From the NCBI GenBank assembly GCA_947475165.1, contig CANJLD010000013.1, forward strand, positions 77,250-110,284: a DNA stretch of 33,035 nt, written 5' to 3'. Of the stretch, positions 19,293-27,983 are shown in pieces. Numbering within the stretch: the first letter of the stretch is position 1; each line of letters opens with the position of its first letter. The notes beneath the pieces are model-generated. The model saw nothing but the letters and a program-made list of their open reading frames with translations. It searched no databases and was not told where the DNA came from. The position numbers were made by a program, and so were the translations under genes. The DNA comes from Bacteroidota bacterium (GTDB lineage Bacteria; Bacteroidota; Bacteroidia; Chitinophagales; LD1).

Positions 19293-19338
19293 GTTGGTGA
19301 GGCGTGAAAGATTTGTTGTTGGTCAGGCGACCAACAAC
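19293..19338. repeat. REP element, distant copy matching the RAYT-associated set
   Basis: A 25-bp unit begins at 19293 (GTTGGTGAGGCGTGAAAG...) and is followed at 19318 by a second unit that ends in a perfect hairpin: GTTGTTGGTC (19315-19324), loop AGGC, GACCAACAAC (19329-19338). The first unit matches the one at 27751 with one substitution and the hairpin is identical to that at 27798-27821. The rest of the gap 19098-19473 shows nothing I can identify. Confidence 0.85.
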
Positions 19339-19473
19339 GGCAAGGCACAAGAAGCGTTACTTCATTCTTGCGCCAGTGGGGCATAGCGTGGATTTGTTCT
19401 TCTACTAACTAATCTAATTTCTTTTTCGCAGCGCTAGGGCACGGGCGGAGAAGTTTGGCGAAGAGTAAATAAT

Positions 19474-26943: not shown

Positions 26944-27050
26944 CTCCCAACCCCCTAAAGGGGACTTAAATACAAACAGCCCTGGTGTATCATCGGGGCT
27001 GTTTGTATTTTGTATTGGCTGTTAAGCCCCCTTTAGGGGGTTGGGGGGCT
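26942..27050. repeat. Nested inverted repeat (CCCCCTAAAGGGG type)
   Basis: The outer arms 26942-26969 and 27022-27050 are near-perfect inverted repeats built round CCCAACCCCCTAAAGGGG and ending in CTTAA/TTAAG. They enclose the terminator hairpin at 26970-27008. Short elements of this sequence type are frequent between genes in Bacteroidota (recollection, not a search). Confidence 0.75.
26970..27008 (+). terminator. Terminator for the fn3-like gene
   Basis: A perfect 13-bp stem, ATACAAACAGCCC (26970-26982) with GGGCTGTTTGTAT (26996-27008), 13-nt loop, followed by TTTGTATT. It starts 27 bp past the stop codon. Confidence 0.75.
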
Positions 27051-27102
27051 CCACTTTATATTACAACCAATACCGACCACCGGTGGGGCGAAACCTCTCT
27101 GC
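27049..27102 (-). pseudogene. Fragment of a redoxin gene 3' end
   Basis: This stretch matches the 3' end of the intact redoxin gene at 30361-30415: CTCCACTT, ATATTACAACCAATA and GGGGCGAAAC are shared exactly, with a one-base length difference between them. The minus strand reads GIGCNIKW, the C-terminal motif of the intact protein (NIGCNIKWRV), with a frameshift just before it. Nothing upstream of the match (27103 on) is redoxin-like; a REP hairpin and the RAYT gene begin there instead. Confidence 0.6.
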
Positions 27103-27108
27103 TTGCTG

Positions 27109-27130
27109 TTGTTGGTCGCCTGACCAACAA
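27109..27130. repeat. REP palindrome on the 3' side of the RAYT gene
   Basis: TTGTTGGTC (27109-27117), loop GCCT, GACCAACAA (27122-27130). It is the reverse complement of the REP hairpins at 19315 and 27798. It lies 15 bp past the RAYT stop codon. Confidence 0.85.
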
Positions 27131-27145
27131 TAAAACGCGCTAACA

Positions 27146-27667
27146 CTACGCTCTATAATCTGACAAAAACCGCCAACGTTTATCGTTATTATAATAATAC
27201 GAAGCCGAAGACCAATAATAATCTTCGGGCAGTTTTGCCAAATTCCATTTCTCTTGAACAGGATTGTTATGTATATAATCTAACTTTTGTTTAAAAAACG
27301 ACTCTGTAAAAAGTTCCTTGCTTAAAGAGTTCCTTTCCCAAATTTGATGTTGCCTGTCTTTGGCAGCTACTTCGGTTTCGTGATACAAGAAATCATCTTC
27401 TGCTTTTAAATAAGTAAGCATTGATTTAGCTGTATATTTCAATAAATCGCGTTGAAAGTCTTGCTCATCTATCTCGTTACAAATTTTCCAGATAAGGTGC
27501 ATGTGGTTTGGCATTATCACAAAACCAAACACTTTTAACTGCTCATTCATTACCCTATAAACAAGCGCATCAATTACAATTCGTTTACAAGCATCATGTT
27601 TCAAAAAGTGTTTCCACTCCAAGCAAGTAATGGTAACAAAGGCTGTATACTTTTTGTCGAAAGCCAT
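27146..27667 (-). CDS. REP-associated tyrosine transposase (RAYT, Y1_Tnp family)
   Basis: A 173-residue single-domain HUH transposase of the IS200-like TnpA_REP type. The metal-binding motif is His55-Met56-His57 in VIMPNHMHLIW, and the catalytic tyrosine is Tyr131 in KQKLDYIHNNPV, the usual RAYT context. A C-terminal WSSASYYYN follows. All catalytic residues are intact. Such enzymes recognise REP palindromes flanking their genes; here hairpins flank both sides (27109-27130 and 27726-27821) with 15 and 58 bp spacing. It lies between a redoxin fragment and the cytochrome operon. Confidence 0.95.
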   Translation of the reverse strand: MAFDKKYTAFVTITCLEWKHFLKHDACKRIVIDALVYRVMNEQLKVFGFVIMPNHMHLIWKICNEIDEQDFQRDLLKYTAKSMLTYLKAEDDFLYHETEVAAKDRQHQIWERNSLSKELFTESFFKQKLDYIHNNPVQEKWNLAKLPEDYYWSSASYYYNNDKRWRFLSDYRA

Positions 27668-27725
27668 AACATAAAAATATATTTTTCATGTAAAATTTGT
27701 TACGGTTTCGCAATAAAAATCTGCT

Positions 27726-27821
27726 GTTGGTCGGGCGTGGAATATTTATTGTTGGTCAGGCGTGAAAGATTTGTTGTTGGTCAGGCGTGGAATATTTGTT
27801 GTTGGTCAGGCGACCAACAAC
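27726..27821. repeat. REP-derived 25-bp tandem array on the 5' side of the RAYT gene
   Basis: Units start at 27726, 27751, 27776 and 27801, each GTTGGTC(A/G)GGCG..., exactly 25 bp apart. The last unit completes a perfect hairpin: GTTGTTGGTC (27798-27807), loop AGGC, GACCAACAAC (27812-27821). Earlier units lack the second arm. No gene is seen in the surrounding gap 27668-28012 apart from the promoter at 27984. Confidence 0.88.
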
Positions 27822-27983
27822 AGCAAGCATCAAAATAACATCTACTGATAATTTATGACTTCAATCATCGCTTGTATTGAAGCGAGTCAATGGCTTATGC
27901 GTATAAGGCAGATAGGTTTGCTGTGGAGAAAAAAGAACTGATTCAGCACTTCAAAACAACACATATAACCGGTAGAATACACG

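Follow-up and report, generated by a model that had tools for sequence, protein, structure and literature searches.

The stretch analysed here, called the window throughout (33,035 nucleotides, G000:C13:77250-110284, in a 3.88-Mb genome of 45 contigs), contains a gene for a REP-associated tyrosine transposase (RAYT) set between two hairpins, and it raises the question of whether this RAYT has scattered its hairpins over the genome and, if so, of what the mobile unit is. We consider it likely that the locus is a REPtron of a Bacteroidota, non-GTAG type, in which a single-copy RAYT mobilises its own hairpins of about 27 nt in trans. The locus has the following parts:

27100–27134, no strand: left arm of a 35-nt inverted repeat that brackets the RAYT, 97% complementary to 27795–27829
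27105–27131, plus strand: 27-nt REP unit on the 3' side of the RAYT, with a GCT tag, a 10-bp stem and a GCCT loop
27146–27667, minus strand: intact RAYT, a TnpAREP-like HUH-Y1 transposase of 173 aa (NF047646, 4er8 profile and fold matches)
27726–27750, plus strand: first 25-bp half-unit (GTTGGTCGGGCGTG..), without the 3' arm
27751–27775, plus strand: second 25-bp half-unit
27776–27800, plus strand: third 25-bp half-unit
27795–27829, no strand: right arm of the inverted repeat; DNA homology with G015 starts just outside it, at 27833
27798–27824, minus strand: 27-nt REP unit on the 5' side of the RAYT, its GCT tag pointing outward

The translated ORF carries the motifs N-H-M-H (H55 and H57), YIHNNP with Y131, WE and SS, and H55, H57 and Y131 are unchanged in 25 of 25 aligned RAYT sequences, which bears out the intact transposase with HMH and Tyr131 proposed by the sequence-only reading. 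The NCBIfam model NF047646 (REP-associated tyrosine transposase) matches the protein with an E value of 3e-20 and 72.6 bits, 7 bits under its curated cut-off of 80; homolog L056 scores above that cut-off (81.8), and L057 and L053 score below it (79.6 and 66.9). Because the fold, the motifs and the flanks fit, we take the low score as a limit of the model. A Pfam search at E 1e-3 matched the window RAYT to no family. A profile of 25 homologs found TnpAREP (4er8) among solved structures with E 1.3e-5, and Foldseek, run with the AlphaFold model (pLDDT 94), ranked 4er8 first (E 5e-8, TM 0.62/0.64) with IS200/IS605 transposases next. The model shows the TnpAREP fold, and the window RAYT would be a single-copy HUH-Y1 single-strand nuclease recognising its own hairpin. 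G000 has a single RAYT of this type; four other matches share 22–33% identity, and different hairpins stand at each of the three that were inspected. Among the best 80 named relatives, out of at least 513 confirmed, 78 have Bacteroidota titles, the others being L208 (Ignavibacteriae) and L246 (Chloroflexota).

The hairpin cores beside the gene lie at 27111–27128 and 27801–27818, one in each arm of the inverted repeat, in agreement with the earlier proposal of a REP hairpin on either side of the RAYT; folded as single-stranded DNA, 27797–27826 gave z values of −5.9 and −6.1, one per strand. The array on the 5' side, initially described as having four 25-bp units, has four if the full hairpin is counted as one of them; otherwise, three half-units lead into a hairpin. 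In G015, homology covers the right-hand neighbour gene with its leader and reaches window position 27833, 4 bases beyond the inverted repeat; the RAYT is absent from the 1.5 kb upstream of this homologous neighbour, and the genome has no RAYT match at E ≤ 1e-30. Since the homology stops at 27833 and the RAYT is missing there, the RAYT block ends at a rearrangement border. A left-flank match to the locus was looked for in G015 and not found, so that only the right boundary is readable. Note that the region left of the RAYT block (window 26946–27045) contains nested inverted repeats of its own (CCCAACCCCCTAAAGGGG.. and AAATACAAACAGCCC..).

The 18-nt core of the hairpin, GTTGGTCAGGCGACCAAC, is present in 20 copies spread over 10 contigs of G000, well beyond the three sites first named, and the reversed core used as a control occurs 0 times. 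One dispersed copy lies in the window itself:

19293–19317, plus strand: half-unit preceding the copy at 19315, with one mismatch (GTTGGTG)
19315–19341, minus strand: dispersed REP copy with a GCC tag on the minus strand; core at 19318–19335

Its neighbours encode a T9SS type A phosphoesterase and a T9SS type B C-type lectin. The observation of a distant identical hairpin with a 25-bp partner, placed between two T9SS cargo genes, is confirmed in its main points, as is the rest of what the sequence-only reading observed at the locus. Most copies lie outside identified genes, singly or as inverted pairs such as C6:38491/38528 and C32:25180/25213. The flanks of most of the 20 copies are unrelated; the exceptions are (i) the REPs at the contig ends C16:80 and C37:80 (L014, L020), both of whose flanks are near-identical, perhaps as a genuine duplication or as an artefact of assembly; (ii) C7:8881 and C7:11450 (L008, L009), 2.6 kb apart, which have 32 nt in common on the right; (iii) a few other pairs sharing 14–15 nt on one side. 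Given the sharing in the first two cases, not all copies are independent hairpin insertions. The shared right flank of the C7 pair ends near ACACCAGCAAGGGC, a sequence similar to the right arm of a second REP family, and the pair is perhaps a longer composite. This second family of G000, GCCNNTGTTGGTG-TTAT-CACCAAC (GTTGGTG-TTAT), has at least 13 exact cores and is present too in G007, G012 and G013; no RAYT with matching flanks was found for it in G000. Examples are given below:

C2:103185, C3:95813, C17:34463 and C22:42026 of G000: members of the second REP family (L281–L295)

The REP unit consists of a 10-bp stem strand, a 4-nt loop (GCCT), the second 10-bp stem strand and a GC(C/T/A) tag at one foot only. 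In 76 dispersed sites (76 of 85 hairpins, counted in five genomes and belonging to two sister REP families and variants), a GCN tag is found at exactly one foot in 64, at both feet in 0 and at neither in 12. The tag is bound to the orientation of the loop: the tagged strand has GCCT as its loop at 17 sites in G000, 10 in G016 and 2 in G013, AGGC at a single site (G013), and TTAT at 12 sites in G000.

The polarity extends to the RAYT loci at large. At 83 loci, whose RAYT genes are nearly all from Bacteroidota, there are 149 hairpins with a stem of 8 bp or longer. In 65 of them GCC is found no more than 4 nt from the outward foot, and in 8 no more than 4 nt from the inner one; for the exact trinucleotide at the foot, the figures are 52 and 6. 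Counted per locus, GCC is outward in 43 and inward in 8 of the 66 that bear hairpins, and these loci are non-independent trials since they share ancestry. The majority of the hairpins end in other feet, among them CCC, CCG, CTC and TTA, which makes GCC the commonest tag and not the sole one; some of the 149 may not be REPs. Inverted matches of at least 14 nt between the two flanks were present at 51 of the 83 loci versus 13 of 332 mismatched pairs; the mismatched pairing served as control because the direct-repeat control was poor (28 of 86 loci), symmetric hairpins also matching directly. The flank, tag and tree counts leave out L061, L213 and L255 (short flanks), L181 and L185 (same records as L057 and L058) and L200 (near copy of L199). 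GT[AG]G was not found at the 5' foot of the hairpin, where GCC or GCN stands instead, and the GCC tag occupies the place of GTAG in classical REPs. By this reading, the polarity of the hairpin would be set by two features, the asymmetric GCCT loop and a trinucleotide at one foot that resembles GCC (in the window's family, GCN); the trinucleotide, located where E. coli REPs have GTAG, probably guides cleavage.

Hairpin type follows the RAYT phylogeny. When the four loop-closing bases are used as labels (64 of 83 rows labelled, 19 without a label), the tree requires 12 changes against a mean of 30.3 after shuffling, and 0 of 200 shuffles were as low. All 13 hairpins of the CGTG type make up one group, and the window RAYT belongs to a supported set of nine rows, seven labelled GGTC and two unlabelled. 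Moreover, a RAYT of another genus, 48% identical to that of the window, is bracketed by the same hairpin, letter-for-letter over 24 nt. Together with the 20 dispersed copies, the sharing of a hairpin at this distance and the tracking of type along the tree uphold the initial view of a RAYT with its cognate REPs, and we infer that the window RAYT made the dispersed copies. The RAYT would act in trans on units of about 27 nt, which would most likely move as single-stranded DNA at replication, and its gene itself would stay put.

A part of the copies lies within genes. The unit is free of stops in five of six frames, its 27 nt or so amounting to nine codons, which would allow some copies to persist in frame in conserved proteins. 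From 80 fetched sites, we collected the ORFs (stop-to-stop, at least 80 aa) spanning the hairpin and scanned them with Pfam: the 37 ORFs in the frame encoding VVGxxTNN (L020, a near copy of L014, left out) matched 13 protein kinds by grouping, or at least 15 ORFs if matches are kept separate, and the 32 ORFs in the other two frames gave a single match, a TolC-like protein (L296, G013 C6:36156) with the REP in its signal peptide, in a hydrophobic frame. In-frame copies nearly always use the VVGxxTNN frame. Two of the 13 kinds have the following features: at L016 (G000 C26:49215) the REP directly precedes the start codon of a class II dehydroquinase gene and might influence translation, and the biotin-carboxylase match is close to the end of its ORF. 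An OmpA/PorE match (L311) and the PorP signal-peptide matches are not counted towards the in-gene claim, since the hairpin in these proteins may be part of the native coding sequence. The window's own REP accounts for 3 of its 20 copies inside an identified gene, namely one in murF and a pair in an RsmF-like gene; the remaining in-frame cases involve sister REPs or other genomes.

Alignments of these genes display filled and empty sites. In the cell-wall enzyme MurF, IVGQATNN of G000 (L093) and, at the identical position, IVGENTNN of G017 (L099), which derive from different REPs, are absent in 26 of 28 aligned sequences (L122, which ends before the site, was left out, and L121 is blank at the site); L110 and L115, which lack the insert, differ in length there by two residues. 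At the codon level, 27 nt replace 15 in murF, a net gain of 12 nt, which contradicts a simple 27-nt paste without loss; the event was more complex than a simple insertion, or was later trimmed. The RsmF-like gene has an inverted pair in G000, a seemingly decayed single copy in G013 and none in 27 of 29, several of the sequences differing in length at the site by 1–3. HutI carries an insert at the same codon position in G000 (L327) and G007 (L328), 2 of 27 aligned, and an NDH-2-like protein carries one in G016 only (1 of 25). Nearly all of the relatives in these alignments lack the in-frame insert, and the murF and hutI cases suggest recurrent use of one position by REPs. These positions are possible insertion hot spots; alternatively, their filling may reflect shared descent with losses, or transfer.

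The best-surviving alternative, which we nevertheless regard as unlikely, is that an older or different RAYT left the REPs behind as relics and that they are now copied only by recombination or gene conversion, while the window RAYT has been domesticated for another task. The distribution of the hairpin among genomes speaks for it. The exact AGGC hairpin is present in seven genomes of the family, and a RAYT bracketed by the same hairpin was detected in two (G000 and G023). G016 has 10 copies, and the RAYT detected there contains stops and comes with different hairpins; copies without any RAYT at E ≤ 1e-30 occur in G013 (73% complete) and G020; G018 and G025 also have copies without a detected cognate RAYT. 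Such copies may come from drafts or losses; they weaken the claim that the window RAYT made all copies. The second REP family of G000, lacking a cognate RAYT there, the flanks shared by some copies, and one copy that, by eye, occupies a corresponding gene end in G000 and G013 point in the same direction. Against it stand the 20 copies, which share one core and whose flanks are mostly unrelated, and the murF and hutI sites, which are empty in most relatives, close ones included; the RAYT gene, moreover, is intact and has a cognate inverted repeat. Mobilisation of the hairpins by their own RAYT is the preferred reading.

The extent of the mobile unit is a separate matter. The sequence-only reading held the hairpin plus its 25-bp half-unit to be the mobile entity. 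'AGGCGTGAAAGATTTGTTGTTGGTCAGGCG' is indeed common to the array next to the RAYT and the site at 19293, and a decayed relative of the half-unit does precede the copy at C6:1796. These are, however, the only 3 of 20 copies preceded by the half-unit or its spacer sequence; the other 17 have none, and the partial matches examined, five further TTGGTGAGGCG matches in the genome and three exact TTGGTCAGGCG matches outside intact hairpins and the array, contained no half-unit. In a base profile of 19 distinct copies from G000 and 18 from relatives, conservation outside the core is strong only near the feet (two or three bases on the left; AA.. and GC up to six bases on the right). Farther out, the profile of the G000 set stays at or below 0.65 bits, and positions +26 and +27 of the relatives reach 0.8 bits, perhaps because about half of the 18 copies come from one genome. 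It is on account of this fall-off beyond the bases next to the core that we set the unit at about 27 nt. The composite is largely refuted and seems to us very improbable as the mobile entity.

Reading the hairpins as ordinary terminators, or as palindromes that arose by chance, is hardly credible: several G016 copies do stand beside terminator-like stems, yet copy number refutes this explanation (20 copies against 0 control matches), the sequence identity extends to the loop and the one-sided tag, and copies are found within open reading frames. The stems in question, of the form GCGAAGG, were noticed by eye a few bases from many G016 copies (L069–L079). A simple filter for a terminator-like stem within 70 nt retained 5 of 11 sites in G016 (one on the far side), 0 of 24 in G000 (where the entries count pairs twice) and 0 of 5 in G013, and given these counts we make no claim that REPs prefer terminators.

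As to known systems, the closest in the available text of PMC6006769 is TnpAREP/RAYT subclass 2.6, which is described as mostly from Bacteroidetes, with the motifs NH[LIV]H, WQ, YIH[QN]NP and SS, no GT[AG]G and 'atypical secondary structures', and as taking in the 40 sequences of RAYT group 5 (Bertels et al.). The window system resembles this description in NHxH, YIHNNP, the C-terminal SS, its Bacteroidota host and its non-GTAG structures with copies elsewhere, and departs from it in having WE for WQ and strong hairpins in place of 'atypical' ones. By motifs and description, it would be a REP/RAYT system of the little-described Bacteroidota type, akin to subclass 2.6. With the GTAG REPs and TnpAREP of the E. 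coli type (4er8; PMC8266576, as far as its available text goes) it shares the one-sided foot tag, the inverted REPs around the RAYT and the dispersed copies, whereas the tag is GCC/GCN instead of GTAG/GTGG and the 10-bp stem is perfect instead of bulged as in E. coli REPs; the three TnpAREP systems assayed, according to the same text, all use GTAG. IS200/IS605 elements likewise have the HUH-Y1 fold, hairpin ends and a tetranucleotide 5' of the foot; unlike them, the window RAYT gene does not multiply with its hairpins, and G000 has no second copy of it.

In-gene REP copies as such are already known, since the available part of PMC3733652 describes intragenic GTAG and CGTC REPs as well as Rickettsia palindromic elements (RPEs). 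Like the RPEs and CGTC REPs of that part, the present units are short palindromes lying in frame in genes; unlike the CGTC REPs, the sites of the window's family have no CGTC tag, and whereas the CGTC repeats are presented there with no associated transposase gene, a cognate RAYT was found here. The TIRtrons/TIRYTs of the same source also have a RAYT-like gene inside inverted repeats able to form a repeat family; in the window, the inverted repeats are tagged hairpins and, by reading, lack GGGGWSAS. Neither PMC6006769 nor PMC8266576 contains the trinucleotide 'GCC' in its main text, and of its three occurrences in the available text of PMC3733652, loop ends among them, none is presented as a tag. 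Relative to these texts, two things are new: the GCC tag, together with its polarity and wide occurrence, and the presence of in-frame copies, at sites that are empty in relatives, in a genome that has the cognate RAYT.

Whether these observations define a Bacteroidota class of GCC-tagged REPs, whose cognate RAYTs paste units of about 27 nt into conserved genes and between them, seems to us evenly balanced. If they do, RAYTs would keep supplying housekeeping enzymes with in-frame peptides (VVGxxTNN), and this would be an RPE-like system for which the transposase is found and in which the same codon positions are reused (murF, hutI). A non-GTAG tag of strict polarity around Bacteroidota RAYTs would offer a natural swap for testing the guide-sequence model, and in-frame REPs with empty sites in relatives would provide readable insertion events that bear on the origin of RPE-like coding palindromes.

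A more intricate in-frame case is that of recF, in which G000 has 20 extra residues, G013 has 8 and 24 of 26 sequences have none (26 of the 30 loci were aligned, the other four being second pieces). In the G000 gene (L354/L295, C30:24001-24498), a CGCAGGGT..ACCCTGCG palindrome adjoins a GTTGGTG REP, both in frame, and this palindrome resembles the CGCAGAGTC hairpins that flank the RAYT-like loci L053 and L054 of the same genome.
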